From Cellulomonas hominis (GTDB taxonomy: Bacteria > Actinomycetota > Actinomycetes > Actinomycetales > Cellulomonadaceae): a stretch of 64,000 nucleotides of DNA. Below the pieces are notes generated by a model. The model was not told where the DNA came from. It worked only from the letters and a program-made list of their open reading frames with translations, and did no database searches. Location of the stretch: NCBI RefSeq assembly GCF_014201095.1, contig NZ_JACHDN010000001.1, forward strand, positions 3,658,001 to 3,722,000, written 5' to 3'. The translations under genes were made by a program, and so were the position numbers. Below are positions 6,027 through 61,171 of the stretch, in pieces; positions within the stretch are counted from its first letter, which is position 1, and each line of letters begins with the position of its first letter.

Positions 6027-6034
6027 ATGTGCGG
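6027..6034 (-). promoter_or_regulatory. CACAT box, orphan
   Basis: CCGCACATCTACC reads on the minus strand with no start codon at 9 nt and no clear gene until 5402. It may drive an untranslated RNA or give the TraG gene a leader of about 620 nt. Confidence 0.5.
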
Positions 6035-6036
6035 GG

Positions 6037-6079
6037 CACCGTGACGCCTGACCGGCCAGGTCACCGTGGCGTCACCGTG
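6037..6079. repeat. Nested inverted repeat
   Basis: CACCGTGACGCC (6037-6048) is perfectly inverted at 6068-6079 with a 19-nt spacer. The spacer holds a smaller TGACC/GGTCA pair. It lies next to the orphan CACAT box and at the point where the GCGCAGCG octamers change orientation. Confidence 0.75.
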
Positions 6080-6749
6080 ACGGGTTCGCGCGGGCGGGCA
6101 CCGGAACCGCGCAGCGGCACCCGTCACCCGCGGAACCCACCGCCCGTGTCACCGGTCCGCGCCGAGACGACCACCGGCACGCACCGAGTCGTGCACGCGC
6201 GAGCGCAGCGAGCTGCGTCGCACACGGAGGTGACCACACCTGACGAACCCGGCCACCCACGAACACCGGCCCGCCGCCCGACACACCGACAGCACCCCCG
6301 GCCGCGGAGCCGGGCACAGCGCAGCGGCGACCCGGCAGCCGGCCACGCGAAGCGGGCCCTGCGCGAGCGCAGCGAGACGCACACGCCCCGGCGCCGCCGC
6401 CGTCCCGCACCCGCACAGGACCGGTCACCCTCCGGCGGCCACCGTGGTCCGCGTCGCGGCATCCGGCCCGCCCCAGGTGGCACCCACCGGCAAGGCCGCG
6501 TCGTGCCCCGCGGGCGCGCCGCGACCCGACCCGCCGCCGTCCCGGCGCCGGTCCGGTCCCGGCGCGCCCGCGGGCGCGCACGACACCGCCCAGCACCGTC
6601 ACGGCAACCGGCTCGCCAACCGTCACGCACACGCGCAGCCGCGCAGCGGCGAGCAGCGCAGGCCGCAGGCCGAGCAGCGACCGACCCGACCGAGCGCAGC
6701 GAGGGAGGGGAGGGAGCTCATGGGGCGGCGGCGGGGCCCCGGGTCGCGG

Positions 6750-6971
6750 CTATCGCCGCTGGCGGCTCGCCTCCGGCTCGCTGGGCTGGCTCTGCCGGCT
6801 TGCCGATGTTCGGCGTCGGGCGAGGTGGCGGAGAACGGCGCTGGCGGTGGTGATGATCGCGCGGGCGGCCAGCGCGGCTTCGCTCTGCGTGAGTGGGTGG
6901 CCGTGGCGGGCGGCGAGGCTGGCGAAGAGCAGAGCAAGGAGGTCGGCGATGAGAGCCCGTGTGGTGTTCAT
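6750..6971 (-). CDS. Small helical hypothetical protein
   Basis: 73 aa from ATG 6971. Residues 1-50 form alternating hydrophobic helices (ALIADLLALLFASLA) and the tail is basic. The upstream sequence shows no good Shine-Dalgarno. It is the only frame between 5.4 and 7.0 kb with protein-like composition. Function unknown. Confidence 0.45.
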   Translation of the reverse strand: MNTTRALIADLLALLFASLAARHGHPLTQSEAALAARAIITTASAVLRHLARRRTSASRQSQPSEPEASRQRR

Positions 6972-7035
6972 GGGCCGGAACCTGCACGGCCTCGGTGGCT
7001 AGTGTCGCGCCCTCAGTCGGCGCTCGAGCTCCTGG

Positions 7036-9887: not shown

Positions 9888-10706
9888 TCAGCTCATCGCG
9901 CGGATGAGGTCAGCGAGGGCTGCCGGCACCTGGGCGCGCGGGGTGTTCGTCGCGCCGGCGACCCGGCCGAGGGCGATGTCGCGCGCGATGCCCTCGACCT
10001 TGGTGCAGGCGGCTCGCAGCTCCAGGACACCGCGGTCGTTGAGGCTCGCGGTGACGTGCTGCTTGCCGCCGGCGGACGCGACGAACTCCTCGTGGTCGAG
10101 CACGAGCATGGCCTGCCCGGTGCGCGCGTACTGGAAGCGGGACCGAGCCAGGACCCGTGAGCCGGCGAGCGGGCTGGCCTGCACGTGCTGCTGGAGCAGC
10201 AGGTGGGTGTCGAGGCGCGCGGCGACCGTGTCGACGACGGGCGGGATGTCACGGTCGATCGGCTCGCGTCGGAGCCACTCGCTGGTCGCCCCCACGTACC
10301 GGGGGTTGGTTCCGGTCTCGCGCAGGAGAGCAAGCCCGCTGACGAGGAGTCCGGCCGCGTCGGGGCCGCCGCCCGACCATCCGGGCGCCTCCTGCGCGAT
10401 CCGGACGTCGGCGACGTACTCCGCGCACCGGGCGTCGGTGATCGCGCGCATCTCGACGTCGACGGGCTCGGCGTGCCCTGCCGCCTGGGCTGCGGCGAGC
10501 GCGGCCTGCACGGCCAGCTCCCGGCGCTCGAGCAGGTCGGCGCGGCCGGTCTGCCCGGTTCGGCGCGCGAGCATCGCTGCGGCGACGAGGCGGGGCGCGC
10601 CGGGGTCGTCGCGGGCGAGCCGGGTGGCGGACTCGCTGCGCGGTGTGGCGGTGTACTGGCCGCCGGTCGTGACGCCGGCCGGGACCCGGGGCTGCAGGAG
10701 GCTCAT
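9888..10706 (-). CDS. Hypothetical protein with RxPAGxxxGGQ N-terminus
   Basis: 272 aa from ATG 10706, chosen because a CACAT box lies exactly 9 nt upstream. The N-terminus LQPRVPAGVTTGGQY matches the starts of the genes at 24341-25063 and 28507. The rest is alpha-helical without catalytic motifs. Transcribed alone after a strong hairpin that ends the response-regulator gene. Confidence 0.7.
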   Translation of the reverse strand: MSLLQPRVPAGVTTGGQYTATPRSESATRLARDDPGAPRLVAAAMLARRTGQTGRADLLERRELAVQAALAAAQAAGHAEPVDVEMRAITDARCAEYVADVRIAQEAPGWSGGGPDAAGLLVSGLALLRETGTNPRYVGATSEWLRREPIDRDIPPVVDTVAARLDTHLLLQQHVQASPLAGSRVLARSRFQYARTGQAMLVLDHEEFVASAGGKQHVTASLNDRGVLELRAACTKVEGIARDIALGRVAGATNTPRAQVPAALADLIRAMS

Positions 10707-10715: not shown

Positions 10716-10723
10716 ATGTGCGG
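10716..10723 (-). promoter_or_regulatory. CACAT box, 9 nt before ATG 10706
   Basis: Core CCGCACAT followed by 9 nt (CTACAGCAC) and the start codon; no Shine-Dalgarno, so a leaderless mRNA is likely. Confidence 0.75.
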
Positions 10724-12879: not shown

Positions 12880-12887
12880 ATGTGCGG
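12880..12887 (-). promoter_or_regulatory. CACAT box, 9 nt before GTG 12870
   Basis: Core plus 9 nt (CGGTAGTCC) to the GTG. Opens the two-gene operon 12870-11843. Confidence 0.75.
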
Positions 12888-13243: not shown

Positions 13244-13251
13244 ATGTGCGG
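13244..13251 (-). promoter_or_regulatory. CACAT box, 9 nt before ATG 13234
   Basis: Core plus 9 nt (CAGCAGGGC) to the ATG; no Shine-Dalgarno. Confidence 0.75.
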
Positions 13252-14338: not shown

Positions 14339-14346
14339 ATGTGCGG
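14339..14346 (-). promoter_or_regulatory. CACAT box, 42 nt before ATG 14296
   Basis: Leadered class: the 42-nt leader contains a Shine-Dalgarno. Confidence 0.65.
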
Positions 14347-14742: not shown

Positions 14743-14750
14743 ATGTGCGG
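14743..14750 (-). promoter_or_regulatory. CACAT box, 9 nt before GTG 14733 (divergent pair)
   Basis: Core plus 9 nt (CTGCACGGC) to the GTG. Only 19 bp separate it from the opposite-facing box at 14770. Confidence 0.75.
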
Positions 14751-14769: not shown

Positions 14770-14777
14770 CCGCACAT
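14770..14777 (+). promoter_or_regulatory. CACAT box, 50 nt before ATG 14828 (divergent pair)
   Basis: Leadered class with AGAGGAGG before the ATG. Faces away from the 14743 box, so any -35 or upstream sites of the two overlap. Confidence 0.7.
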
Positions 14778-18162: not shown

Positions 18163-18170
18163 CCGCACAT
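18163..18170 (+). promoter_or_regulatory. CACAT box, 9 nt before GTG 18180
   Basis: Core plus 9 nt (CCCAGTGAG) to the GTG; leaderless class. Confidence 0.75.
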
Positions 18171-19038: not shown

Positions 19039-19046
19039 CCGCACAT
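19039..19046 (+). promoter_or_regulatory. CACAT box, 46 nt before ATG 19093
   Basis: Leadered class; AGGAGG lies 10 nt before the ATG. Confidence 0.7.
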
Positions 19047-20671: not shown

Positions 20672-20679
20672 CCGCACAT
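20672..20679 (+). promoter_or_regulatory. CACAT box, 9 nt before ATG 20689
   Basis: Core plus 9 nt (CCGTAGCGC) to the ATG. Opens the two-gene operon 20689-21841. Confidence 0.75.
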
Positions 20680-21860: not shown

Positions 21861-21890
21861 CTGATGCCCCGCACATCTACGGGGCATCAG
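21861..21890. terminator. 10-bp hairpin with a CACAT box as its loop
   Basis: CTGATGCCCC and GGGGCATCAG pair perfectly around the loop GCACATCTAC. It follows the ParB-like gene by 19 nt, so it probably ends that operon. The CACAT core spans 21869-21876 and starts inside the stem. Confidence 0.7.
21869..21876 (+). promoter_or_regulatory. CACAT box inside a hairpin
   Basis: Core lies at the stem-loop junction. The next start is 124 nt downstream (ATG 22001), the longest spacing seen, so its role as a promoter is less clear. Confidence 0.5.
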
Positions 21891-24328: not shown

Positions 24329-24336
24329 ATGTGCGG
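24329..24336 (-). promoter_or_regulatory. CACAT box, 9 nt before ATG 24319
   Basis: Core plus 9 nt (CTGCCTTTC) to the ATG of a frameshifted gene. Confidence 0.7.
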
Positions 24337-25072: not shown

Positions 25073-25080
25073 ATGTGCGG
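25073..25080 (-). promoter_or_regulatory. CACAT box, 9 nt before ATG 25063
   Basis: Core plus 9 nt (CTACCTGCC) to the ATG. Confidence 0.75.
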
Positions 25081-25467: not shown

Positions 25468-25475
25468 ATGTGCGG
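25468..25475 (-). promoter_or_regulatory. CACAT box, 46 nt before ATG 25421
   Basis: Leadered class with a Shine-Dalgarno. Followed by ACGAT, so a TACGAT hexamer overlaps its end. Confidence 0.7.
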
Positions 25476-28387: not shown

Positions 28388-28507
28388 GCCTATGTGCGGC
28401 AGGCGCGGTCGGCCCGCAGTGAGGTCGTTGACGGCCTCGCCGCGCAGGCTGGGCTCGAACTGCCCGCCTGCGCGGACGCCGGCGGGGGTGCGGGGCTGGT
28501 CGCTCAT
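28388..28507 (-). CDS. Short gene with RxPAGxxxGGQF N-terminus, 3' end uncertain
   Basis: ATG 28507 is exactly 9 nt after a variant CACAT box and opens MSDQPRTPAGVRAGGQFEP, like two other genes here. The frame has no stop for 440 codons and runs through the next genes, so the true end cannot be fixed. The span given stops where composition ceases to look coding. Possibly a remnant of a longer gene. Confidence 0.4.
28392..28399 (-). promoter_or_regulatory. CACAT box, 50 nt before GTG 28341
   Basis: Leadered class with GGAGG before the GTG. Opens the six-gene operon that includes the PTH2-like gene. Confidence 0.7.
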
Positions 28508-29647: not shown

Positions 29648-29655
29648 ATGTGCGG
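29648..29655 (-). promoter_or_regulatory. CACAT box, 9 nt before ATG 29638
   Basis: Core plus 9 nt (TCACCGATC) to the ATG. Confidence 0.75.
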
Positions 29656-31274: not shown

Positions 31275-31282
31275 ATGTGCGG
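31275..31282 (-). promoter_or_regulatory. CACAT box, 12 nt before GTG 31262
   Basis: The only copy with 12-nt spacing, one codon more than the usual 9. Confidence 0.65.
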
Positions 31283-32687: not shown

Positions 32688-32695
32688 ATGTGCGG
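32688..32695 (-). promoter_or_regulatory. CACAT box, 9 nt before ATG 32678
   Basis: Core plus 9 nt (CCCCTATCC) to the ATG. Confidence 0.75.
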
Positions 32696-33006: not shown

Positions 33007-33014
33007 ATGTGCGG
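33007..33014 (-). promoter_or_regulatory. CACAT box, 60 nt before ATG 32946
   Basis: Leadered class; the longest leader among the copies with a Shine-Dalgarno. Confidence 0.6.
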
Positions 33015-35022: not shown

Positions 35023-35637
35023 CTAGACCTCGCGTATGTGCGGCGCGCTGCCCTGCAGGTCCGGCACGGCCAGCCAGGAGGACTCCAGCACCAGCAGGTC
35101 CGCCTGCGGGAGGCGTCCGTGCAGCCGGTCGGCGACCAGTGCGCGCAGCAGCGCCTCGCTGGCGTAGACCGGCACGTCGCGGACCTCGCGGCGGAAGCGG
35201 CGGTCGTCGAGGAGCCGGACCGGCAGCCAGGCCCAGATGACCCAGCCGACCCAGACGCCCAGCTGGATGGCCAGCGGGTTGCCCTCCCACGGCCAGCGCA
35301 GCAGGGAGACGGCCAGCATCGTGACTACCCCGACGACGACCGCGAGGCTCAGGATGCGGTGCAACCGGGACAGGGCCGGGTGGGCGGCACGGTGCTCGCC
35401 CTCGCGGGCCTCCTGGCGGGACATCTCCCACAGGTAGCCCAGCGGCTGGCCGGGCTCCTCGGCCTGACGGACCTGCTCGATCAGCTCCTCGACTCCGGCC
35501 GGGTCGACGGCGAGCGCAGACCCGATGGCGGCGTTCCCGGCCCGGTCGTGCCGGCGGGCGTGCTCGGCCAGGGCGGCAGCCTGCTGCCAGGTCAGGTGGG
35601 CGGCGGCGGACCAGCGGTCCGGTGCGGTGGCGTCCAT
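35023..35637 (-). CDS. Membrane protein with two helices
   Basis: 204 aa from ATG 35637, 9 nt after a CACAT box. Soluble helical N-terminus, then two membrane helices (ILSLAVVVGVVTMLAVSLL and IQLGVWVGWVIWAWLPVRLL), then a C-terminal domain. Its last codons (SAPHIREV) read through the next gene's CACAT box. Function unknown. Confidence 0.7.
   Translation of the reverse strand: MDATAPDRWSAAAHLTWQQAAALAEHARRHDRAGNAAIGSALAVDPAGVEELIEQVRQAEEPGQPLGYLWEMSRQEAREGEHRAAHPALSRLHRILSLAVVVGVVTMLAVSLLRWPWEGNPLAIQLGVWVGWVIWAWLPVRLLDDRRFRREVRDVPVYASEALLRALVADRLHGRLPQADLLVLESSWLAVPDLQGSAPHIREV
35036..35043 (-). promoter_or_regulatory. CACAT box, 37 nt before TTG 34998
   Basis: Leadered class; drives the UvrD-like helicase. 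The core is translated as PHI in the preceding gene. Confidence 0.65.
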
Positions 35638-36137
35638 GGCGGGCCTATGTGCGGCGGCCTCGCCGGGGGAGGCTGGCTCACCCGGCTGCGGTCGCGGCCT
35701 CGCGCAGCCGGTGCCGGGACCGGCGCCCACGGCCCGACCAGCCGGCCCGCCATGCGGGCCCCGTCCAGGCGGTACTGGCCGCGGTCGCCGGTGTAGCGGT
35801 CCACGGCCTCCTGCGCCTCGTGGCGGCGGTAGCCCTCGCGGGCGTACGGGGCGGAGGTCTCGAGCCGGTCGAAGTCGCCGTCGGTGAAGGTGCGGGTCTG
35901 CACCGCCCACTGCCAGTCCAGGTGGGCCACCGGCAGCCCGGCAGCCTCCAGGGCAGCGAGCATGGCGGCGGCCACCTGCGCGTCGGTGGCGTACAGGTCG
36001 CCGTCGGGCCCGGTCGCGGTCCACGGGGCGGGCCCGTCCGGGCCGCGGGTCCACAGCAGGGCCGTGCCGTCGCCGGTCGGCTCGGCGAAGACCTGCCCGG
36101 CAGTGAAGACCGCGGCCGCGGCCAGGCCCGCGCTCAT
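35592..36137 (-). CDS. Hypothetical protein, 3' end uncertain
   Basis: ATG 36137 overlaps the previous stop. The first 130 residues read well (GDGTALLWTRGPDG, VAHLDWQWAVQTRTF). The frame then crosses the next gene's CACAT box and ends inside that gene. An alternative frame ends at 35678 with a natural tail (RLREAATAAG then TGA), so a one-base shift is possible. Confidence 0.55.
   Translation of the reverse strand: MSAGLAAAAVFTAGQVFAEPTGDGTALLWTRGPDGPAPWTATGPDGDLYATDAQVAAAMLAALEAAGLPVAHLDWQWAVQTRTFTDGDFDRLETSAPYAREGYRRHEAQEAVDRYTGDRGQYRLDGARMAGRLVGPWAPVPAPAARGRDRSRVSQPPPARPPHIGPPWTPPHRTAGPPPPT
35647..35654 (-). promoter_or_regulatory. CACAT box, 9 nt before ATG 35637
   Basis: Core plus 9 nt (AGGCCCGCC) to the ATG. 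Confidence 0.75.
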
Positions 36138-40628: not shown

Positions 40629-40636
40629 ATGTGCGG
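40629..40636 (-). promoter_or_regulatory. CACAT box, 51 nt before ATG 40577
   Basis: Leadered class. The IS now separates this promoter from the seven-gene operon 39139-35592. An ATG also lies 10 nt after the core but has no good frame. Confidence 0.6.
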
Positions 40637-41312: not shown

Positions 41313-41320
41313 ATGTGCGG
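41313..41320 (-). promoter_or_regulatory. CACAT box, 50 nt before ATG 41262
   Basis: Leadered class with a strong Shine-Dalgarno. Confidence 0.7.
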
Positions 41321-44311: not shown

Positions 44312-44319
44312 ATGTGCGG
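44312..44319 (-). promoter_or_regulatory. CACAT box, 49 nt before ATG 44262
   Basis: Leadered class with a Shine-Dalgarno. Confidence 0.7.
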
Positions 44320-45238: not shown

Positions 45239-45246
45239 ATGTGCGG
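45239..45246 (-). promoter_or_regulatory. CACAT box, 35 nt before ATG 45203
   Basis: Leadered class, the shortest leader (35 nt) with a Shine-Dalgarno. Confidence 0.7.
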
Positions 45247-46353: not shown

Positions 46354-46361
46354 ATGTGCGG
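46354..46361 (-). promoter_or_regulatory. CACAT box, 9 nt before ATG 46344
   Basis: Core plus 9 nt (CTGCTGAGC) to the ATG. Confidence 0.75.
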
Positions 46362-46833: not shown

Positions 46834-47033
46834 GGCGATGGGATGTGCGGCACTGGCGTCGGCGGGGAGTCGTCGTGGCGCCCGTACTCGGGGTGGTAGG
46901 TGCGCGTGAACGTGGTGCCGTCGGTGCAGCACACCTGGACCCGAACGTCCGAGTGAGTGTTCGCAGCCAGGCGCGCTGCCTCGACCATCGCGTCGGCCTG
47001 CCTCAAGTCCCAGCGGGAACGGGTGGCTCTCAC
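46830..47033 (-). CDS. Small hypothetical protein
   Basis: 67 aa from GTG 47033, 9 nt after a CACAT box. VRVQVCCTDGTTFTRTYHPE is beta-rich. It ends VPHIPSP, where PHI is the next CACAT box read as protein, and its TGA overlaps the next ATG. Confidence 0.65.
   Translation of the reverse strand: MRATRSRWDLRQADAMVEAARLAANTHSDVRVQVCCTDGTTFTRTYHPEYGRHDDSPPTPVPHIPSP
46843..46850 (-). promoter_or_regulatory. CACAT box, 9 nt before ATG 46833
   Basis: Core plus 9 nt (CCCATCGCC) to the ATG; translated as PHI in the gene before. Confidence 0.75.
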
Positions 47034-47042: not shown

Positions 47043-47050
47043 ATGTGCGG
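47043..47050 (-). promoter_or_regulatory. CACAT box, 9 nt before GTG 47033
   Basis: Core plus 9 nt (CCGCACGGT) to the GTG. It lies just past the end of the ParA-sigma-DUF2637 operon. Confidence 0.75.
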
Positions 47051-47060
47051 CAGCCCATCG

Positions 47061-48140: not shown

Positions 48141-48416
48141 TCACGGGTGCGCGTCAACGGCCTGCTGAAGTAGCGGCGCGATGTGCGCGGCGTCGCGCTC
48201 ACCGCCGGCATCGAGATGCTCGACCACGCGATCGACTGCGCGCAGTACGGTCGCCGGCTCGGCCTGCCCGGTGAGCGCGTGCACGAGTGCGATGAGACGT
48301 TCCTCGCGCACCCTCTCCCAGACGGCGACGTCCTCGTGCAGCACTGCGGAGTCGAGGACGTTCTGCGCGGCGAAGACGTCCGCGACGATGCGGTCGGCCA
48401 TGGTGATGCTGCTCAT
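48141..48416 (-). CDS. Small helical protein
   Basis: 91 aa from ATG 48416 in an overlap with the sigma gene stop. Two long helices (ADRIVADVFAAQNVLDSAVL). Because it is coupled directly to the sigma gene, it is a candidate partner or anti-sigma-type regulator, though nothing in its sequence proves this. Confidence 0.6.
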   Translation of the reverse strand: MSSITMADRIVADVFAAQNVLDSAVLHEDVAVWERVREERLIALVHALTGQAEPATVLRAVDRVVEHLDAGGERDAAHIAPLLQQAVDAHP

Positions 48417-49282
48417 GCGGGCTCCCTCGTGTCGCGGACGCCGAACTCGTTCACCAGGACGCGCACGGCCAGGTCCTGGGCGGCGGCGATGAGCTCGGCG
48501 GTCTCCGCGACGCGCATGCCCATCAACGCCGCGACCTCGCTCACGGGCCGCGGCGCTCCGATCGCCTCGTCGAACGTCGACCCCAGCCACGCGCCGAGCA
48601 CGCGCGCGAGACGCTCGTCGGTCTCCATCGCGCGCGCGATCGCGACCGTCAGGAACTTGCGCGCCTCGTGCGGGGCGAGCGGCGCGTCGGAGTGCATCCA
48701 GACGGGGGCGTCGTTCTCCTCGGGCAGCAGCGGCACGTTGGTCGGCTGCTGCAGGTCCTCGACGGTGGAGATCATGCCCTCGCGCTTGGCGTCCTTGCGC
48801 TTGGCGCGCATGCGGGCGTTGGTGACCTCGACGATCTGCTCGGGGGTCGGTTCGGCGTTCAGCTCGGCCCGCAGTGCGGCCTGCGTGCGGTTGAGCTCGC
48901 GCTGGCGGCGGGCGAGCGACGTGGTGCCCGAGGGCTTCTCACCAGACTGCGCCCCGTCGGCGTAGGAGCGCATCGCCGCCTTCGTGTGGTGGTAGAGGTA
49001 CCCGTTGAACGCGGTGATCCGATCCATCCGGGTGGGGTCGGCGATGATCGCGTTGCACAGCATCGTGAACTGGGTCTCGACGATGCCGACGGCGTCGTCG
49101 CCGTGCACCATCGGGTCCAGACCCGCGATGCGGCACAGCTGAAGAGCGATCGAGCGCATGTCGGGCAGCTTGCTGCGAGCGAAGTCGTTCAGCAGTCGGG
49201 CGCGAACGTGCCCATCGGCGGCCACGATGGCCTCGAGCGCCTCACGCTCGGGGTACTGGGCTGCAGGGTCGGGGCTCGACAT
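48413..49282 (-). CDS. Divergent sigma-70-like factor
   Basis: 289 aa from ATG 49282 (TGATG overlap with the gene before). Residues about 30-115 resemble region 2 (LPDMRSIALQLCRIAG, then FNGYLYHHTKAAMRSYADG). Residues 120-160 match region 3 (LARRQRELNRTQAALRAEL, then EPTPEQI, which is very typical). Residues 205-280 fit a region 4 helix-turn-helix (RPVSEVAALMGMRVAETAEL). The acidic and aromatic core is altered relative to housekeeping factors, so a different promoter is expected. It is the best candidate to read the CACAT boxes. Its own operon has none. Confidence 0.6.
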   Translation of the reverse strand: MSSPDPAAQYPEREALEAIVAADGHVRARLLNDFARSKLPDMRSIALQLCRIAGLDPMVHGDDAVGIVETQFTMLCNAIIADPTRMDRITAFNGYLYHHTKAAMRSYADGAQSGEKPSGTTSLARRQRELNRTQAALRAELNAEPTPEQIVEVTNARMRAKRKDAKREGMISTVEDLQQPTNVPLLPEENDAPVWMHSDAPLAPHEARKFLTVAIARAMETDERLARVLGAWLGSTFDEAIGAPRPVSEVAALMGMRVAETAELIAAAQDLAVRVLVNEFGVRDTREPA

Positions 49283-49737
49283 CAGCGGGTGAGTCCTGTC
49301 TGGGTGGGAGACGTCTGGGGCGCGAAGGGGAACCCGCGCCACGGCGGGCCGATGTCGCCGTCGTTCAGCGCGTCGGTGAAGGCCAGGACGCGCGCCCCCC
49401 GGGTCCGGGGGTCCACCAGCCACGCGACGGTGAGGCGCCTGTCGGTGCGGGGCTCGCCGAGCAGGACGCGCAGGCGCGTGACGGCTGCCGAGACGCGGGT
49501 CTTGCCCCACTCGGGCTGGGCGCCGAGCAGCTGGGTCAACGAGATCCGCAGCAGCGCGCTGCCGTCGGGCGCGCACGCCGCGGTGATGACGTCGTGCACG
49601 TTGAGCAGGCCGGTGGCCACCGACGTCAGGTACTCGGCGCGGCGCCGGTTGGCGTTCGTGCGCGCCGCTGCGGCGACGGCTGGGTCGGCCAGCGCACCTC
49701 CCGACGGCCGCGGGGCCGGAACCGTGCGGGTCGTCAT
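49282..49737 (-). CDS. mIHF-like nucleoid-associated protein
   Basis: 151 aa. VHDVITAACAPDGSALLRIS, then LTQLLGAQPEWGKTRVSAAV resembles the helix-two-turn-helix of mycobacterial integration host factor (LxxLLxxxPxxGxxRA). A longer C-terminal part carries WLVDPRTRGARVLAF. Probably binds DNA and may shape the element or its promoters. Just upstream of the sigma gene in the same operon. Confidence 0.5.
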   Translation of the reverse strand: MTTRTVPAPRPSGGALADPAVAAAARTNANRRRAEYLTSVATGLLNVHDVITAACAPDGSALLRISLTQLLGAQPEWGKTRVSAAVTRLRVLLGEPRTDRRLTVAWLVDPRTRGARVLAFTDALNDGDIGPPWRGFPFAPQTSPTQTGLTR

Positions 49738-50786
49738 GACGCCCGCCTGAGGTCCGCGTTCAGCGCGCCGGCCAGGGCCCGGCGCGAGCGCGCGGCGAGC
49801 TCGGTGACGTCACTGGTCGCGTTCTCGGCCCGCGCGAGGGCGAGGGCCTCGACGTCGACCGCGGTGCGTGCGGTGGCCGCTCGTGGCTCGCGCGCTGCGG
49901 AGGCGTTCAGATCGGCGCCGGCGGACAGGGCGCGGGCGGCCCGTCGCATGGACAGGAAGTCGCGCGGGTGCGCCTGGCGGTAGGCGGCCACGACCTCGTC
50001 CAGGCTCGCGCCGGGCATGGCGCGCTGGACCGTGCGGATCTTGCGGCCGATCGGCGGGTCGGAGATCGCGCGTCGCACGTAGGCTTCGGCGGCGCGCCGC
50101 AGGTCGACGGTCAGGTAGTGCAGGGGGTCGACCCGCACGAACGCGGCGGGCGCGAGCGACCTCTCGATGATGCGGTCGACTGCGCCGGGGGTCTGGCCGG
50201 TTCCGAGGAGCATCGCGTCGCGGACAGTCTCCGTGCTGGTGGCATCCAGCACGGAGTGCACCGATCGCAGGCCGAGGACGTCCCGGGTCACTGTGGCGAC
50301 GGCGGCGTCGACGGCCTGCTCGACGTAGCGCTCGAGGCTCATCCGGGCCTGCCAGCGCGAGGTGTCGGCGCGCTGGAGGAGGGCGGCGCGGGCGGCCTGG
50401 GTGTCGGGGCCGTGATCGGTCGGTGCGAGGTCCGCGCAGCCCTTGATGCTGTGGACCCCGTGCTCCGTGACCTGGACGGTCAGCACGCCGGTGACCGCGT
50501 GGCCCAGCCCGGTCGCGGACCACGGCAGGTGGTGGGTCCCGGCCGGAAGTGCGACCAGGTGCGCGGCATCGGGCCAGGTGACCCGCACGGGCATGAGCAT
50601 CGTGCGGCCGTCGGCGCGCACTGCCTTGCGCCCGATGCTGATGGCGGGGGCGAGCCACAGCCACGCGGGAAGTGCGACGAGCCGGCGCCCGGTCTGCGGC
50701 GTGGTGGAGGACGGCTGCTGCAGGAGGTTCTCGAGGTGGCCGCACCACGCGTCGATCCACTCGTGGCGTGCGCTGGTTTCGCTCAC
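49734..50786 (-). CDS. Hypothetical protein
   Basis: 350 aa, GTG 50786 in a 4-nt overlap. N-terminal mixed domain (LPAWLWLAPAISIGRKAVRA, GVLTVQVTEHGVHSIKGC), C-terminal helical domain (DLRRAAEAYVRRAISDPPIG). No family recognised. Lies between ParA and the sigma factor, which suggests a role in maintenance or regulation. Confidence 0.65.
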   Translation of the reverse strand: MSETSARHEWIDAWCGHLENLLQQPSSTTPQTGRRLVALPAWLWLAPAISIGRKAVRADGRTMLMPVRVTWPDAAHLVALPAGTHHLPWSATGLGHAVTGVLTVQVTEHGVHSIKGCADLAPTDHGPDTQAARAALLQRADTSRWQARMSLERYVEQAVDAAVATVTRDVLGLRSVHSVLDATSTETVRDAMLLGTGQTPGAVDRIIERSLAPAAFVRVDPLHYLTVDLRRAAEAYVRRAISDPPIGRKIRTVQRAMPGASLDEVVAAYRQAHPRDFLSMRRAARALSAGADLNASAAREPRAATARTAVDVEALALARAENATSDVTELAARSRRALAGALNADLRRAS

Positions 50787-51226
50787 CGCTTCCTCCTGAG
50801 GGCATGAAGGGTCAGCAGCGCGGGCACGACAGGGCTCGCCGCGAGGGCGGCGTGGTCCCACAGCAGGGCGGCGGCGACGATGGCCGCGGCGAGCGCGAGT
50901 GTGGCGACCGCAGCTGTCGGGACTCGGCTGCTGTCCGGTGCGGGGCTGTGCTCCGCGGATGTGGGCTGTCGGCGAGTCGGTGGCTGCGGCTCCGGCGACG
51001 TGGTCGAGTCAACCCCCGGGGGTGCAACCCGAACGTCCCAAAGGTCCCAGACGGCCCCAGCGGGGATCTCGGGCTCCGCGCTCTGGTCCTTCGCCGGGTG
51101 GCCGGGGGTCATCCGTAGCGGGCGCTGTTGCACAACTTCCCACGGACTGGGCTCCTGGGTGGCGGGAACACGCCGTGTCGGCCCGAAGAGGTCCTCGGCG
51201 CGATCCGGTCCGCTTGGGCCTGTCAC
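50783..51226 (-). CDS. Tail-anchored membrane protein
   Basis: 147 aa, GTG 51226 overlapping the ParA stop. A Pro/Ser-rich soluble region (SPEPQPPTRRQPTSAEHS) and one C-terminal membrane helix region (AAVATLALAAAIVAAALLW, then PVVPALLTLHAL). Could tether ParA or another partner to the membrane. Confidence 0.6.
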   Translation of the reverse strand: MTGPSGPDRAEDLFGPTRRVPATQEPSPWEVVQQRPLRMTPGHPAKDQSAEPEIPAGAVWDLWDVRVAPPGVDSTTSPEPQPPTRRQPTSAEHSPAPDSSRVPTAAVATLALAAAIVAAALLWDHAALAASPVVPALLTLHALRRKR

Positions 51227-52713
51227 CTGCCGAGCCCCAGGAAGCCGCGGCGGCGCTTGGCCGTCTTCACCTCGACGTCCTTGGGTGCGAACTCCTCGAG
51301 CCCGGTCACGGCGAACAGCACCTGGTCGAGCACCGGGGCGAGCACGGGGTGATCCCACGGCACCTCACCGGCGTTGGTGGCAGCGATGATCGCCGGGTCA
51401 CGCATGACTCGTCCCCGCACCCAGCCGAGCTTGCCGAGGTGGTCCATCGTCCGCTGCTGGGGGTAGTCGATCTCGGCCGGCACGTCGTTCAGGACGATGC
51501 TGATGTTGTCCACGTCGACGCCGGCGTCCCGGAAGGAACGGATCCTCGAGGACAGGTTGTCGATCGACACGGGCACGAGGTTGGTGATGCCGACCATGTG
51601 GGCGTACTGCTCCAGAGCGGGGACCCACACGTCGTCGAACAGGCCGGAGGTGTCGTCGCTCTCGGCGATCTGGGTGTCCACCACCACGAGGTCTGCCATC
51701 GAGCGGGCGGCCTGGAGCACCTCGGAGTAGACCGCGGACGTCACGACGTCCCTGTCGGCCATGCCGTCGAGCGGCGCGAGCGCGACGGCGAAGTGGATGC
51801 GCTCGAGGCCCGCGGGCCGGTAGGCGGCGATCTGGTCGGGGAGGACGAGCACGGACTCGGCCGGGGCGCCGGCGGCCACGTCGTAGACGGTCGGCAGTGG
51901 TGCGCGGGACAGACGCAGGTAGCCTCGCAGGTCACCCTGCCCGCGGTTGCCGTCCAGAACGGCGACGCGGAGCTTGGCGAGCCGGGCGGCCCGCTCGCCG
52001 AGCGCCAGGGCGTAGGTCGTCTTGCCGACGCCGCCCTTGCCTGCGATGGGGAGCACCGTGTGTGCACCGGCCACGGGAGTCGGCACGGTGGCGCGCGCGG
52101 TGGCCTGCGAGGCCGCGGGGGTGGGTGCGGAGTCGGGCTGATGCACGGCCGGCGGTGTGCGAACAGCGGTGCGAGCAGGTGCTGGAGCGGGGGCGGCGGG
52201 GGCTGGGGCCGCGTCCAGTGAAGCCGGCGCGAGGCCGGAGGCTGCTGGCATAGTCGCGGGGTCCGCGGCTGGGGTCGCCTGCGGCGGCTCGGCCACCATC
52301 ACCACGCCGTCGGGGGCCACGAACGCGTCGCGCAGCGGCTCCGGGCAGGCCACGCCGACCTCGGCGAGCAGCTCGGCCACCATGACCGGGGCGGCGAACC
52401 GCTTGGCGCGTGCGGTGTTCCCGCCGATCGGGGACGGGACCGGACCCAGGCCGGCGGCGACCGGGTCGAGCTGCACGATGGCTGCGCGCGGGCGCGTGAC
52501 CCACTTCTCCAGCCAGGGGGTCTGGCCGGGGCCGGCGTAGTCGCCCACGATCAGCGCCAGCTCGGGGTGGGCTCGACCCGCGGTGGTGATCGCGGTCGCC
52601 GCTGTGCGGAAGTCCGGTCCGCCGACGCTGGCGACGCCGCACGCCTCGAGCGCTGCGTGCAGGCTGGGCAGGTGGAGCAGACCCACGACGGGAGAGGTGG
52701 GGAAGGTCGTCAC
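51223..52713 (-). CDS. ParA/MinD-type ATPase with N-terminal receiver-like domain
   Basis: 496 aa from GTG 52713. Residues 1-120 look like an atypical receiver fold (VVGLLHLPSLHAALEACG, LALIVGDYAGPGQTP, AAIVQLD), as in CpaE/TadZ proteins. A Pro/Ala linker follows, then the deviant Walker A GKGGVGKTT and DLVVVDTQIAESD. It may position the element or a transfer machine. TAGGGAT lies just before the start, hinting at a near-leaderless vegetative promoter. Opens the eight-gene operon that encodes the sigma factor. Confidence 0.75.
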   Translation of the reverse strand: MTTFPTSPVVGLLHLPSLHAALEACGVASVGGPDFRTAATAITTAGRAHPELALIVGDYAGPGQTPWLEKWVTRPRAAIVQLDPVAAGLGPVPSPIGGNTARAKRFAAPVMVAELLAEVGVACPEPLRDAFVAPDGVVMVAEPPQATPAADPATMPAASGLAPASLDAAPAPAAPAPAPARTAVRTPPAVHQPDSAPTPAASQATARATVPTPVAGAHTVLPIAGKGGVGKTTYALALGERAARLAKLRVAVLDGNRGQGDLRGYLRLSRAPLPTVYDVAAGAPAESVLVLPDQIAAYRPAGLERIHFAVALAPLDGMADRDVVTSAVYSEVLQAARSMADLVVVDTQIAESDDTSGLFDDVWVPALEQYAHMVGITNLVPVSIDNLSSRIRSFRDAGVDVDNISIVLNDVPAEIDYPQQRTMDHLGKLGWVRGRVMRDPAIIAATNAGEVPWDHPVLAPVLDQVLFAVTGLEEFAPKDVEVKTAKRRRGFLGLGR

Positions 52714-53046
52714 ACCATCCCTACGCAGGGGCGTCGGGGTTTGGTGTCGCCGCGTGCGCTGAACCGCCCGGACCCGACAATCGCCGTCGCTAGGGTGTGC
52801 CGAACAACTGTCGCTGGTCGGGCCGGCGTAGGAGGAGTCCGATCCGGGCGGGCATGCCGCGCCCAAGACGCTCGTCGCGACACCTCGGCGTACTCCCGCC
52901 AGCCAGTGCTCAGAGCAGGGATGTCCGCCGCAGCTGGACGTACCGAAAGACGAGATGAGCGATGGGCCGCTAGGCGGTGTCGGGCAGGTCCGACGCCAGG
53001 AGCGCTGTCGTTCGGGCCGGTCACACGGACGACATCCCGCAGACCA
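52714..53046. other. Intergenic region before the TnpB element
   Basis: No convincing gene. Holds TAGGGTGTGCCGAACAAC at 52791-52808, which nearly repeats the leaderless promoter of the 54605 gene (TAGGGTGTGCC, three bases, GAACAAC). Some of it is probably the left end of the TnpB element. Confidence 0.4.
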
Positions 53047-53074
53047 GCACTGACATCCTCGGCCGTGTCAGTGC
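53047..53074 (+). repeat. Left-end hairpin of the TnpB element
   Basis: GCACTGACA and TGTCAGTGC pair perfectly around a 10-nt loop, 21 nt before the TnpB start. IS200/IS605 ends carry such subterminal hairpins. Confidence 0.65.
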
Positions 53075-53095
53075 AGCTCGATAGCGTGCGTGTCG

Positions 53096-54538: not shown

Positions 54539-54556
54539 GGACGTCCGAGAAGGACG

Positions 54557-54588
54557 CTGTCGAAGGACCCGCCGAGGTTGTTCGACAG
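54557..54588 (+). ncRNA. Right-end hairpin, candidate omega RNA scaffold
   Basis: CTGTCGAA and TTCGACAG pair perfectly around a 16-nt loop, 19 nt past the TnpB stop. In this family the guide RNA ends at the right end, so its scaffold should cover the tnpB tail and this hairpin, with the guide just beyond. Confidence 0.4.
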
Positions 54589-54592
54589 GCTT

Positions 54593-54598
54593 TAGGGT
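54593..54598 (+). promoter_or_regulatory. Canonical -10 box, leaderless start
   Basis: TAGGGT ends 6 nt before GTG 54605. A TANNNT leaderless promoter, not a CACAT box. Confidence 0.65.
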
Positions 54599-54604
54599 GT
54601 GCCC

Positions 54605-55306
54605 GTGAACAACCCGTTGGCGCTCCCCGCGGCCTGGGCCGCAGCCCTGTGCGAACCGCTCATCAGCACGCGACGGCGCGCCGACCTCGATGCGGCGATG
54701 CGGCAGCGGGCCACGGAGTCGCCACGGTGGGCGGTCATCTTCTTCGCCGGCATGGTCTCCGACCAGATCCAGACCCTGCCCGCCGAGGACCCCTGGCGAC
54801 ACCTGTCGGCCCGAGCCGGCGACCTGACTCGGTGCGACGTACCTCGCCCTCCGGACAGCACCGGGGCAGTCTCGGGCGGCGACGTGTTCGGCCAGCCGAG
54901 CCAGGGGGAGGACCTGGTCGACCTTTCCCCGGGCGACCCCGGCGCCGAGGTGACCAGCGCAGCCCTCGCCGATGGGCTCGAGCCCCCTGCTGCAGCTGTG
55001 CTCGCGTTCGCCGCCGACGGCTGGCGGGCGGCCGCCGGGGCGCTCGAGGAGGTGCTTGCGCAGGGGCATGAGGTGTTCGAGATCGGTGCCGACGCGCTGC
55101 GCTGGGCCGTCTGGCGCCGGCGTGCCTACGTGGGAGCCGACGACGACCTCACGATGCTCTCGGCGATGCAGTGGGCGTGGCGCGCGCAGGCCCTGAGCGA
55201 GGGCGGCGCGCTCGACCTCGCCGAGTCCGAGACGACCATGATCGCCACGACGCTGGCCGACTACGCGGTCGCAGCTGGCGAGTACGAGCGGTACCGGCTG
55301 CGCTGA
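54605..55306 (+). CDS. Hypothetical protein
   Basis: 233 aa from GTG 54605, start fixed by the -10 box. Two helical halves joined by an acidic linker. AVLAFAADGWRAAAGALEEV and MLSAMQWAWRAQALSEGG are its clearest segments. Sits between TnpB and the replication gene. Function unknown. Confidence 0.7.
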   Translation: MNNPLALPAAWAAALCEPLISTRRRADLDAAMRQRATESPRWAVIFFAGMVSDQIQTLPAEDPWRHLSARAGDLTRCDVPRPPDSTGAVSGGDVFGQPSQGEDLVDLSPGDPGAEVTSAALADGLEPPAAAVLAFAADGWRAAAGALEEVLAQGHEVFEIGADALRWAVWRRRAYVGADDDLTMLSAMQWAWRAQALSEGGALDLAESETTMIATTLADYAVAAGEYERYRLR

Positions 55307-55328
55307 CCCGACCGGGGCGCCGGCGGCC

Positions 55329-55385
55329 CTGTTACGCTCGCCGTCCCTCGCTCCGAAACCCGCTCGGGCGCGACGAGCGTAACAG
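55329..55385. repeat. 12-bp inverted repeat
   Basis: CTGTTACGCTCG (55329-55340) and its perfect inverse (55374-55385) with a 33-nt spacer. Could end the gene before or form part of an origin. Confidence 0.75.
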
Positions 55386-55601
55386 CCGAATCAAGCCCGG
55401 AACATGTCCGGAATGCACTGCTTAGTGGTGGTTTGGTGGTTCCGGCGAGCCCTGCGGGCGGCGCGCTCCGCAGAAGGCCAACCGCGCGCCACGGGTGTTT
55501 GCGCAGGTCAGAGGCCGATTTCAGGCCTGCGGAGCAACGGGCCCGATTCTCGGGTGCACCCCCTATGGGATATGGAGATACTCACTCTCTCGGCCTACCT
55601 A

Positions 55602-55613
55602 AGGGGTACCCCT
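55602..55613. repeat. 12-bp palindrome
   Basis: AGGGGTACCCCT, perfect, in the candidate origin region. Twelve bases on, GGGGGT and ACCCCC form another small hairpin. Confidence 0.7.
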
Positions 55614-55795
55614 GTGAGAGGGCGATGGGGGTGTCTATGTGTAACCCCCTTATGTGACTACGAATACGTCTCCGTTACTCCGTTACCCCCCAACAGGGAC
55701 CCACGGAAACGAGGCCTGACCTGCACGGGAGCAGCCCGGGGTGCAACGGAGCGCCCTGCGGTCGCCCTGCGGGACTGCGGGGGAGGGCGAACTCG

Positions 55796-55803
55796 CCGCA
55801 CAT
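55796..55803 (+). promoter_or_regulatory. CACAT box, 41 nt before ATG 55845
   Basis: Leadered class (CCGGAG near the ATG). Would drive the primase-helicase gene. Confidence 0.7.
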
Positions 55804-58550: not shown

Positions 58551-58558
58551 CCGCACAT
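58551..58558 (+). promoter_or_regulatory. CACAT box, 36 nt before GTG 58595
   Basis: Leadered class with AAGGAGG just before the start. Confidence 0.7.
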
Positions 58559-58594
58559 CTGCTCCTCGACGCTGACCGTGCGGAAGGAGGCTTG

Positions 58595-59590
58595 GTGAGC
58601 ACCAACGGCACGTGGGCTGCCCGTCGCGCCGCCTCGCGCTACGGGTCAGGAGCCGCCCCAGCGATCCGTGCGCTGGGGGCGACGACCCCCAGCGCGGCCG
58701 CTGTCCTGGCCGAGGTTCCGTTGCCGTACACCGCCGACACGATCGCGCCGCCGGTGGTCCCGCTGACGAAGTCCGAGCCCGTGCGCGTCGTGGCGAAGGT
58801 CGTCGACCTGCGCCCGCCGGAGCAGGTCGACGCCGAGCGCGCTTCACGGCGGGCGCAGCAGGAGGCGTTGCGAGCCGAGACTCCCGACGACATCCCCGAC
58901 GAGCCGGCGCACGAGATGGCCCCACCCGTGCCGTCCGCCGACGACGAACCGGCGGACGGTGAGCTGGCACCGCAGACCGACGGACTTGTCGTGCTCGCAC
59001 TGCGAGACCTGCCGACCTACCCGCCGCACATCATGCGGGTCGGGGCCGGCCCGCTGCCCGAGTGGTGCGGAACCCGTCCGCTCGGAGTCCGCTGGGCTTC
59101 GGGCTGGTGGACCGACGCGGGCCCCCTGCCCGCCAAGGCGAAGGCCGCGCCCGAGGGAACCTCCACCGCCCGAGTCGCCCTGCCGGGAGACGCCGCCGGC
59201 GCCTGGGCTCGGCTCGAGGGGCAGACGAACGACGGCTGGGCGTGGGTGCTCGCGCTCGACGTACAGGGCGACGTCGTCGGTGCGTTCCACGTCCCGAGGG
59301 AGCGGCGCGCCGGCCTGCTCGACGCCCTCGGTGCCCAAGACGCCGGCACGCCGCCCGAGGACGACTGGGTGCTGCTCGCCGGCGAGCGCTTCAACGGCGA
59401 GCCCGCGTCCGCGGAGCGCCCGGCCATCGAACCCGCCCAGCCCATCACCGGCTGCCAGCCGTCCGGGCACGCCGACGTCGACGACGTCGACCCCTGGGCT
59501 GGGTCGCTGCCGGAGGCGGAGTGCGACTGGGCCGCATCGAGCGGCGAGTACCTGGCCGAGGACGGCTGGGCCCTGCCCGGGGCGTTCTGA
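58595..59590 (+). CDS. Hypothetical protein
   Basis: 331 aa from GTG 58595. Pro/Ala-rich, with a long acidic linker (DDIPDEPAHEMAPPVPSADD) and two beta-rich parts (LPTYPPHIMRVGAGPLPEW, GWAWVLALDVQGDVVGAFHV). A CACAT core at 59024-59031 lies inside the frame as PHI and may be chance. Located between the primase and a RecB-like nuclease, so a replication accessory role is possible. Confidence 0.65.
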   Translation: MSTNGTWAARRAASRYGSGAAPAIRALGATTPSAAAVLAEVPLPYTADTIAPPVVPLTKSEPVRVVAKVVDLRPPEQVDAERASRRAQQEALRAETPDDIPDEPAHEMAPPVPSADDEPADGELAPQTDGLVVLALRDLPTYPPHIMRVGAGPLPEWCGTRPLGVRWASGWWTDAGPLPAKAKAAPEGTSTARVALPGDAAGAWARLEGQTNDGWAWVLALDVQGDVVGAFHVPRERRAGLLDALGAQDAGTPPEDDWVLLAGERFNGEPASAERPAIEPAQPITGCQPSGHADVDDVDPWAGSLPEAECDWAASSGEYLAEDGWALPGAF

Positions 59591-59606
59591 GCTCCGGTGC
59601 CACCCG

Positions 59607-59614
59607 CCGCACAT
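59607..59614 (+). promoter_or_regulatory. CACAT box, 9 nt before GTG 59624
   Basis: Core plus 9 nt (ATGCACTAG) to the GTG; leaderless class on the plus strand. Confidence 0.75.
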
Positions 59615-59623
59615 ATGCACTAG

Positions 59624-61171
59624 GTGAGCAACCCGGAGCTGATCTTCCAAGGCGATCGCCTCGCCTGGGACGCCGGACGCCTCGTCATCACCGACACCAC
59701 CCTGCTGGGCCGCCTGGACAGGCCGTACCTGTCGGCGTCCACCGCGAAGGCGATCCACTCGTGCCCGGCCAGGCTGGTGGGGGACAAGGCGCTCCCGCGC
59801 GGCTTCGACCTTCTCGGGGCACCCGAGAGGGGGACCGCGGCGCACCTGGTCCTGGAGCGGCTGTACGAGCTACCCCCGGGGCAGCGCGACCGGCAGCACG
59901 CCATGAAGATCCTGACCGACCTGGTGCTGCTGGAGCCCGGCCCCGACGAGGTCGACTACGCGGCGGCGCTCGGCTCGGACCCTGTGCGCTACGCCACGTG
60001 GATCGCCTCGGTCACCAACGCCTTCCAGGGCATCTTCGAGCTGGAGTCGCCGCCCGCGGTCGAGGTGTGGGCGCGCGAGCTGCGCCTGGACCGGTTCGAG
60101 GTCGCCGGCGTCCCGTTCAAGGGCTTCGTGGACCGCATCGACGGCGACCCCGACACGGGCCTCAAGGTCATCGACTACAAGAGCGGCAAGGTGCCCAAGC
60201 TCCAGTACGGGGACGACCACGGCGACCAGATGCGCCTGTACGCCGAAGCGCTCCTCGCCGGCCTGGGCCACACGGTCGCCGCCGCGCAGCTGCTCTACAT
60301 CGAGAAGGTCGTCAGCCGGGACGTCGACCTGTCCCCGCAGGCGATCGACAACACCAAGCGCGGGTTCGTGCGGTCCTGGGAAGACCTGCGCGGGTACGTG
60401 GAGCGCTCGGCGTTCCCGGCCAAGCCGTCCGCGCTGTGCGGCTGGTGCCCGCTGGTCAACTCCTGCCCGGTCGCGCGCCCCGCGCGCAACCCGGCCGACC
60501 CGCGCGGCAGCAAGCCGTCCGCGATCGACCTGGGCATCCCGACCCTTCGGGCCGGCGGGCGCCCAGAGCCTGTGCCGGTACCGGCTGCGGCGCCGGGCGC
60601 TTCGGCGGCGGCCGCTGCCGCACATACGTCATCCAGGGACGCGCACCAGGGCGCAGCCCACCGGAGCGAGGAGGACCCCATGACCAGCCGCACCCGAGGT
60701 GCTCGCGAGGAGGCGAAGCAGTGGGAGTCCACCGTCAACGGAGAGCTGAACCTCGCCTCGTACGACGCCATCGGCACCATCGGCCTGGCCAGCTTCGCCA
60801 CCGAGCTGCTCGCGGAGCGTGAGGCCGACCTCAAGGTCCACGGGCTCGCGATGAACCCCGCCACCCTGCGCGCGCTCACCGCGGCGCTCGGCCGGATCGT
60901 CCTCGCGGTCCAGTCGGACATCACGGGCGGCTCGCGGTCCTGGGCGGAGGGCTCGAACACTCGCGTGCGGGGCGCCCTGCGCTCGGTGATCGGTGCGCGC
61001 CCGCTGCCCATCGGCGCGGACGGGGCCACCTGGGCGGAGTGGGAGAAGCGGGTGTTCGCCTTCACCCGCGCGATCGTCCAGACCGGCATCGACCTGTTCG
61101 ACGGGAAGCTCGCCGAGGAGCCCCTGACCGCCCTGCTGCCGGCCCCCGCCGCCCCCGCGAAGGCCGCCTGA
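59624..61171 (+). CDS. Cas4/RecB-like iron-sulfur nuclease in frame with a second domain
   Basis: 515-codon frame. Residues 1-290 form a PD-(D/E)XK nuclease: H74, D170 (GFVD), IDYK (D184, K186), Q202. Four Cys (C47, C272, C275, C281) have the layout of the Cas4/AddB iron-sulfur cluster. A Pro/Ala linker then leads, with no stop, into a 163-aa domain that has its own CACAT box and Shine-Dalgarno (see 60680-61171). Either a fusion with an internal start or a lost stop codon. Confidence 0.75.
   Translation: MSNPELIFQGDRLAWDAGRLVITDTTLLGRLDRPYLSASTAKAIHSCPARLVGDKALPRGFDLLGAPERGTAAHLVLERLYELPPGQRDRQHAMKILTDLVLLEPGPDEVDYAAALGSDPVRYATWIASVTNAFQGIFELESPPAVEVWARELRLDRFEVAGVPFKGFVDRIDGDPDTGLKVIDYKSGKVPKLQYGDDHGDQMRLYAEALLAGLGHTVAAAQLLYIEKVVSRDVDLSPQAIDNTKRGFVRSWEDLRGYVERSAFPAKPSALCGWCPLVNSCPVARPARNPADPRGSKPSAIDLGIPTLRAGGRPEPVPVPAAAPGASAAAAAAHTSSRDAHQGAAHRSEEDPMTSRTRGAREEAKQWESTVNGELNLASYDAIGTIGLASFATELLAEREADLKVHGLAMNPATLRALTAALGRIVLAVQSDITGGSRSWAEGSNTRVRGALRSVIGARPLPIGADGATWAEWEKRVFAFTRAIVQTGIDLFDGKLAEEPLTALLPAPAAPAKAA
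60618..60625 (+). promoter_or_regulatory. CACAT box inside the nuclease frame, 54 nt before ATG 60680
   Basis: Leadered class (GCGAGGAGG before the ATG), lying in the linker of the 59624-61171 frame. Confidence 0.65.
60680..61171 (+). CDS. Internal-start product of the nuclease frame
   Basis: 163 aa from ATG 60680, equal to residue 353 of the longer frame. Helical (YDAIGTIGLASFATELLAER, NPATLRALTAALGRIVLAVQ). Its own CACAT box and Shine-Dalgarno make separate synthesis very likely. Followed by a strong hairpin. Function unknown. Confidence 0.65.
   Translation: MTSRTRGAREEAKQWESTVNGELNLASYDAIGTIGLASFATELLAEREADLKVHGLAMNPATLRALTAALGRIVLAVQSDITGGSRSWAEGSNTRVRGALRSVIGARPLPIGADGATWAEWEKRVFAFTRAIVQTGIDLFDGKLAEEPLTALLPAPAAPAKAA

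Follow-up and report, generated by a model that had tools for sequence, protein, structure and literature searches.

We analysed a stretch of 64,000 nucleotides (nt), in the following the window, at positions 3658001-3722000 of the Cellulomonas hominis genome (G000, a single contig of 4,489,147 bp). It lies within an integrated mobile element of about 302 kb that we call element A. Throughout this element the 8-mer CCGCACAT recurs upstream of genes, and it is best read as a core promoter at positions -17 to -10, where the transcription start would most often be the start codon itself. We consider it likely that divergent sigma70-like factors encoded by the element, with the proteins A1 and A2 as candidates, direct the host RNA polymerase to the CCGCACAT core promoters of this one giant integrated element of conjugative type. 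Two further elements carry the same core: element B (about 258 kb, in genome G276, taken as Pseudactinotalea terrae KACC 16542) and element C (parts of two contigs of Cellulosimicrobium sp. Marseille-Q4280, G396). Elements A, B and C hold 132, 135 and 170 copies, respectively, where 12.0, 12.4 and 13.0 are expected; the reversed 8-mer occurs 3, 3 and 12 times.

Occurrence of the motif and its link to gene starts

An earlier note on this DNA had counted about 33 copies of the core in the window and expected only a few by chance. Both statements were borne out: we found 33 exact copies, distributed over both strands, against a mean of 2.76 and a largest count of 8 in 100 dinucleotide shuffles of the window. 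The copy-free zones that it described are also real (1-6026, 47051-55795 and beyond 60625, the outermost copies starting at 6027 and 60618). The distribution nevertheless runs past the window edges, with the 132 copies of element A lying between genome positions 3,519,672 and 3,820,159. Element A makes up 6.7% of the genome, yet it contains 132 of all 196 copies of CCGCACAT, such that the promoter motif is confined to the element. The 64 copies outside represent no excess when compared with the 119 copies of the reversed pattern in the whole genome.

In element A, 118 of the 132 copies were intergenic versus 14% of random positions. A gene start on the same strand followed within 150 nt for 103 of the 132 copies; the corresponding values were 7.9% for random positions and 15/132 for the other strand. 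Our first gene caller was biased to leaderless starts; it supplied the 132-copy alignment, the gene list, the tag set, the protein comparison between elements A and B and the profile ranking described below. All start counts given here come from a caller without leaderless bonus, blind to the motif, or from a rule based on start codons. Within the window the start-codon rule assigned a downstream gene in the direction of the motif to 30 of the 33 copies, 15 being leaderless at 9 nt and 15 having Shine-Dalgarno starts within 160 nt (misses: 6027, 31275 and 59024). The blind caller placed a start within 150 nt for 22 of the 33 (misses: 6027, 21869, 29648, 40629, 44312, 46354, 46843, 47043, 58551, 59024 and 60618). 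The agreement in direction with the following gene, which had been claimed to hold always, is thus predominant but hinges on the gene calls, because the two rules give 30/33 and 22/33. Of the exceptions named in the note, 6027 and 59024 indeed fail both rules, and 60618 has to be added as a copy that likewise lies within a predicted gene. The overall picture of a directional, start-linked motif on a plasmid stands regarding the start link, the direction and the mobile DNA; the element itself is integrated, though its relatives are free plasmids.

The motif as a probable compact core promoter

Aligning the 132 copies of element A revealed no position above 0.12 bit from -60 to two bases before the core, and therefore no conserved -35 element. 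An extracytoplasmic function (ECF) sigma promoter was rejected, since it would need such an element. Downstream, 92% of the copies have a purine as the tenth base 3' of the core; according to the blind caller, the start codon begins with this base in 46 of the 132. When a start codon followed by an open frame was required, a leaderless reading frame 9 or 10 nt after the exact core was obtained for 81/132 (A), 83/135 (B) and 112/170 (C) copies, the first C of the core lying most often 17 nt upstream of the leaderless start codon. In sigma70 promoters the key base is an A at -11, and the second A of the core falls at this position. Selecting exact cores forces 100% in the core columns, so that strictness was judged separately via one-mismatch cores: the 24 such cores pooled gave leaderless starts in only 8/181 (A), 12/212 (B) and 8/225 (C) cases, and none of the one-mismatch cores shown for the three elements was enriched beyond about 2-fold.

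The distance to the start codon is fixed in most copies, as would be expected if, in the manner of cluster K mycobacteriophage start-associated sequences, the motif were a translation-start signal on the mRNA. However, 139 of the 437 copies in the three elements lack a start codon at +8 to +10, and the purine at +17 is still found in 82% of them. A purine that is kept without a start codon points to a transcription start. Moreover, 112 of the 437 copies were assigned a Shine-Dalgarno start farther downstream, and an Rfam scan of the window found no family. A role in translation is therefore highly improbable.

Relatives and their motif spelling

Of the 311 proteins of element A, 122 have a match in element B. 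The 13-mer GCCGCACATCTAC occurs more than twice only in G000 (20 copies) and G276 (9 copies) among 396 genomes of the order, and stretches of the genomes G093, G049 and G091 hold 1-3 copies of CCGCACAT each without a dense cluster. A2 is present in exactly the three CCGCACAT genomes among eight searched. When 84,980 species genomes were scanned with A2, the relatives in B and C were the sole hits, the genome of the window having possibly been left out by the tool. In 72,556 plasmid records, tblastn detected A2 relatives, which are more diverged, on 6 plasmids and A1 relatives on 8. Six plasmids, of Arthrobacter, Pseudarthrobacter, Paenarthrobacter and Curtobacterium and 375-546 kb in size, carry both. 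No relative was found when viral contigs were scanned with A2 or when the A1 relative P0002 was compared by tblastn with phages, where A2 was not searched.

The motif was read for three of the six plasmids and for one 67-kb contig of genome G193 that carries an A1 relative. The dominant spellings were CCGCACACAT on pACHL01 (139 copies, 1.2 expected) and on the A. caoxuetaonis plasmid (132 copies in 370 of 375 kb, 1.0 expected), CCGCGCATAG on Curtobacterium pS16 (89 copies in 450 of 546 kb, 0.7 expected) and CCGCGCATAT on the G193 contig (15 copies, 0.1 expected). In all four cases leaderless starts lay most frequently 17 nt from the first C (68/139, 58/132, 35/89 and 7/15 copies, respectively). 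Related plasmids thus share the position and likeness of the motif but not its spelling. The main motifs have the form CCGC-R-C-A at -17 to -11 in common, after which the bases diverge to -7; between replicons the spelling varies in the -14 to -7 stretch. A cross table of motifs by replicons is almost diagonal.

Two promoter classes and an N-terminal tag

The 12-mer YGCCGCACATCT, which the earlier note had treated as one motif, blends two mostly exclusive extensions of the core. We defined class I by TG directly 5' of the core and class II by CTAC directly 3' of it, weaker forms being called I-like and II-weak. In elements A, B and C, TG alone was found in 50, 60 and 86 copies, CTAC alone in 39, 39 and 55, both in 4, 4 and 6 and neither in 39, 32 and 23, such that the two extensions avoid each other (Fisher test, 1.4e-7, 3e-10 and 3e-19). 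The class is also maintained across orthologs. A class could be given to 141 of the 158 reciprocal ortholog pairs between elements, and 130 of these agreed (69 I-I, 61 II-II, 11 discordant; Fisher test, 2e-26). Without the 54 pairs of tagged genes (see below) the four counts were 69, 5, 6 and 7 (1.6e-4). Leaderless starts at 10 nt rather than 9 were seen for 23/110 class II versus 3/116 class I copies, mostly in element B.

A gene was assigned to 398 of the 437 copies and none to 39. An N-terminal tag resembling RVPAGVxTGGQFA occurs in 104 of the assigned genes, of which 100 are class II or II-weak and 4 belong to no class. The 210 class I or I-like genes all lack the tag, as do 58 class II or II-weak genes. 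In element A, 27 proteins with mostly unrelated bodies share the form R-x-P-x-G-x-x-x-G-G-Q-F (genome 3521965-3782519). The pattern used was made by us and misses variants; several class II genes counted as untagged look tagged by eye. With this pattern, 48 matches were obtained in pACHL01 and 21 in the A. caoxuetaonis plasmid.

On these plasmids we examined leaderless genes after CCG[C/T]ACAC. The T of CCGCACACAT was absent in 21/28 tagged versus 6/96 untagged genes of pACHL01 (8e-13) and in 14/15 versus 19/87 genes of the A. caoxuetaonis plasmid (1.6e-7); the bases before CCGC showed no association with the tag on these plasmids. On the G193 contig CCGCCCTTAT precedes 3 tagged genes. For pS16, whose class II spelling was read by eye only, we found 17 copies of CCGCACACAT, some of them upstream of tag-like genes. 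A given spelling can therefore stand for class I on one plasmid but for class II on a different one.

Since class II promoters precede many genes with the same tag, the copies might have been dispersed as a repeat, or as a cassette of promoter plus tag, with no dedicated factor involved. The tag is, however, absent from all class I genes, the upstream flanks are unconserved and the geometry is equal in replicons with another spelling, which leaves this origin a next to negligible probability. The A1 gene, too, combines the tag with a class II promoter, namely in elements A, B and C, in pACHL01, in the A. caoxuetaonis plasmid and in G193. On this rests a further, rather doubtful idea, namely that the tag might serve for secretion or loading, by which the candidate sigma A1 and other tagged proteins would be shipped into the recipient cell while conjugation takes place, such that the private promoters would fire there at once.

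Candidate promoter-recognition factors

A2 is encoded in the motif-free gap of the window. Its predicted structure has a predicted TM-score (pTM) of only 0.33. In a Foldseek search of the PDB, the best 50 of 218 matches (E up to 10) were all sigma or polymerase-complex chains, the sigma identity being assigned by chain. The top match, 9a58_A (E 2.4e-4, probability 1.00), extended over about 300 columns and corresponds to the fold of sigma regions 2 to 4. A1 (368 aa, genome 3739535-3740641) lies outside the window; the best eight Foldseek matches of its model were all sigma factors, the top E value being only 0.028. We also aligned the 188 families of the element with hhalign to a sigma70 profile built from four host sigma70 proteins and one FliA of genome G153, in which A2 ranked first and A1 second. 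With the plasmid relatives added, the hhalign probability was 94.0% for A2 and 93.7% for A1, the latter over 232 columns; against three narrower sigma profiles A1 obtained 27.6-73.4%, and its region 4 is indistinct. A1 and A2 both stay below the curated Pfam cut-offs (Sigma70_r3 in A2, E 0.23), as does the A2 relative on pACHL01 (E 1.2e-4, 22.5 bits versus a cut-off of 25.3), and aligning A1 and A2 to PDB sequences gave weak or no matches. Fold and profile evidence thus suggests that A2 is sigma70-like and that A1 may be so as well. An A1 relative in G153 is chromosomal (contig C1, about 236516-237541, L075/L076) and lies beside flagellar genes and FliA.

A2 belongs to an operon of four genes (Table 1) whose order is kept in element B. 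In the six replicons tested this operon has no sense copy of the respective motif, with one antisense copy in B. By eye, the operon heads of A, B and C have a GACA box and, at a constant spacing, a CATAGG or CGTAGG box, followed by a leaderless GTG; in element B the two boxes read TTGACA and CATAGG. On two Arthrobacter-type plasmids CATAG alone is seen, and on pS16 nothing clear.

Because the motif is absent and the head resembles a -35/-10 promoter, the A2 operon would be switched on by a host sigma. A2 would then read the class I genes and A1 the class II genes including its own, which would make A1 self-activating; which factor serves which class is a guess. In this way about 90-170 private promoters per large replicon would be served. 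The element also encodes a WhiB protein (genome 3736955-3737362, L013; Pfam E 2e-25) that may act with A1 or A2. It is 59% identical over 81 residues to its counterpart in element B, and a WhiB gene adjoins the A2 relative on Curtobacterium pS16.

These WhiB findings speak for a rival reading, in which CCGCACAT would instead be the site of an element-encoded activator, for example of WhiB type, that acts with a host or element sigma. The strict, invariant core would fit such a site, and the presence of WhiB slightly lowered our confidence in the sigma factors and slightly raised that in an activator. Nevertheless, the motif itself fills -17 to -10, where a -10 element would lie, there is no other conserved block at a fixed upstream distance, and the spelling shifts between replicons at -14 to -7. 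We consider an activator site unlikely, though to be taken seriously. A single compact block beside the start is typical of promoters of phage-type polymerases, and the layout of the motif would match a single-subunit or other RNA polymerase encoded by the element. PF00940 was found in none of the three genomes, which weighs little since the control was silent as well. PF00562 occurs once per genome, in each case on a contig or stretch that is not part of the element, and no such polymerase is among the 17 long proteins of element A, five of which have no Pfam match. A polymerase of its own is thus very unlikely, and host RNA polymerase guided by element-encoded sigma factors is the reading that we retain.

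The host element and the features of the window

Element A sits in a SpoU-type methyltransferase gene (Pfam E 4e-35), with an intact 304-aa copy at its left and a 125-aa fragment of 72.6% identity at its right end; the fragment adjoins a serine recombinase gene (Resolvase E 1.6e-29). Among its 311 predicted genes, 17 long proteins were scanned first with Pfam. They include a DNA polymerase III alpha with intein, an NAD ligase, an anaerobic nucleoside triphosphate (NTP) reductase, FtsK-like and UvrD-like proteins and an AAA_10 ATPase, which in our reading is VirB4-like. PilM, two T2SSE ATPases, T2SSF and a prepilin peptidase are encoded at genome 3574003-3579293 (L005) and 3816468-3817274 (L017) and may supply element A with a type IV pilus of its own. 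A 982-aa protein that looks TrbL-like by eye gave no Pfam match. From its gene content we read element A as an integrated element of conjugative type with predicted transfer.

Further observations concern individual genes. The polymerase with intein lies at genome 3811089-3815882 (L017), and a LAGLIDADG domain is present in a 1184-aa helicase-like protein (genome 3733404-3736958, L013). A 954-aa protein (genome 3541940-3544804, L004) is 62% identical in element B; it was considered as a polymerase and provisionally set aside, having no Pfam match. An IS3-type insertion with identical 126- and 298-aa proteins occurs three times (window 39183-40456, minus strand; genome 3612687-3613960 and 3787604-3788877). 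The motif-free gap also holds a TnpB/OrfB_IS605 gene (window 53096-54538, plus strand; Cas12f1-like TNB E 2.2e-21). ARAGORN reported one unassigned tRNA.

Table 1. Exact copies of the core CCGCACAT and the sigma operon in the window. Starts are from the blind caller and the start-codon rule.
Feature	Position	Strand	Remarks
Core, class II	6027..6034	-	no downstream start found
Core, class II	10716..10723	-	leaderless (+9); tagged gene, 272 aa, GGQY (9888-10706, -)
Core, class I	12880..12887	-	leaderless
Core, class I	13244..13251	-	leaderless
Core, class I-like	14339..14346	-	CG before core; leadered
Core, class II-weak	14743..14750	-	leaderless
Core, class I	14770..14777	+	leadered; divergent pair with 14743
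Core, class I	18163..18170	+	start at 9 nt (one rule) or 54 nt (other)
Core, class II-weak	19039..19046	+	leadered
Core, class I-like	20672..20679	+	leaderless
Core, class II	21869..21876	+	leadered, one rule only
Core, class I	24329..24336	-	start at 9 nt (one rule) or 107 nt (other)
Core, class II	25073..25080	-	leaderless; GGQF-tagged gene, 240 aa (24341-25063, -)
Core, class I-like	25468..25475	-	leadered
Core, class I	28392..28399	-	leadered
Core, class I	29648..29655	-	leaderless, one rule only
Core, class I	31275..31282	-	start at 75 nt, one rule only
Core, class I	32688..32695	-	leaderless
Core, class II	33007..33014	-	leadered
Core, class I-like	35036..35043	-	leadered; upstream of UvrD-like helicase
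Core, class I-like	35647..35654	-	leaderless
Core, class I	40629..40636	-	start by one rule only; IS3-type insertion downstream
Core, class I	41313..41320	-	leadered
Core, class I	44312..44319	-	leadered, one rule only
Core, class II-weak	45239..45246	-	leadered
Core, class I	46354..46361	-	leaderless, one rule only
Core, class I	46843..46850	-	leaderless, one rule only
Core, class I	47043..47050	-	leaderless, one rule only
A2, divergent sigma70-like, 289 aa	48413..49282	-	candidate promoter-recognition factor (fold and profile)
151-aa protein, sigma operon	49282..49737	-	54% identity to B1078600; no Pfam match
350-aa protein, sigma operon	49734..50786	-	43% identity to B1077569; no Pfam match
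ParA/CbiA-like ATPase	51223..52713	-	first in sigma operon; leaderless GTG; CbiA E 8.7e-6
Motif-free operon head	52720..52750	-	putative, by eye: -35-like GCGACA, -10-like CGTAGG
Core, class II	55796..55803	+	leadered; upstream of 899-aa protein
Core, class I	58551..58558	+	leadered, one rule only
Core, neither class	59024..59031	+	within gene, probably chance
Core, class I-like	59607..59614	+	leaderless start of PD-(D/E)XK nuclease
Core, class I	60618..60625	+	within 3' part of nuclease reading frame; start by one rule only

Comparison with known systems

The earlier note knew of no described promoter or operator with this sequence. In agreement, we found nothing on the motif, the tag or the promoters of these plasmids among the papers listed in searches of the open literature, subscription journals being outside their scope; one paper (PMC4351075) deals with a different repeat. 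Nor did these listings contain promoters of single-block, two-class, leaderless and replicon-specific type that occur about 100 times on giant elements of conjugative type encoding sigma-like proteins beyond the reach of Pfam. If our interpretation is true, giant plasmids and integrated elements of actinobacteria form a family in which each large replicon has a private set of about 90-170 promoters, mostly leaderless, in two classes and with spellings that vary among replicons, and current sigma models miss two sigma families. The natural pairs of spelling and sigma would then make sigma-promoter recognition directly testable.

Start-associated sequences of mycobacteriophages had been proposed as the nearest concept. 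Those of cluster K comprise 93 sites over several phages, are located 3-7 bp upstream of the start codon, contain a Shine-Dalgarno core and are suggested by the authors to act in translation initiation (PMC3203893). Like CCGCACAT, they are an asymmetric repeat upstream of many genes of one mobile element. Unlike it, they include the Shine-Dalgarno sequence and lie closer to the start codon, whereas our core ends 9 nt before the start, contains no Shine-Dalgarno sequence and keeps its purine without a start codon. For these reasons they are not the right comparison.

Sigma factors encoded on plasmids are already known. SigN (ZpdN) of the Bacillus subtilis plasmid pBS32 has a mostly plasmid-restricted regulon, is started by SigA and activates itself, and its consensus has -35 and -10 parts (PMC6751061). 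The confinement of the motif to an element that encodes a predicted sigma-like factor is similar. In contrast to SigN, the present motif is a single block without -35 that comes in two classes, often precedes leaderless genes, has a replicon-specific spelling and is present about 90-170 times on each large replicon. The late promoters of phage T4, read by the sigma gp55, are described in PMC1524935 as a short, highly conserved TATAAATA at -13 to -6; phage Aeh1 has a diverged late motif together with a diverged gp55, and T4 late transcription uses the sliding clamp gp45 and gp33. The proposed function resembles that of both, but as the SigN promoters are bipartite and gp55 was compared by description alone, we assign the present system to neither. 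It differs from T4 by its GC-rich spelling and its occurrence on conjugative-type elements. What it has in common with the T4 late promoters is one strict block near the start and no -35 element.

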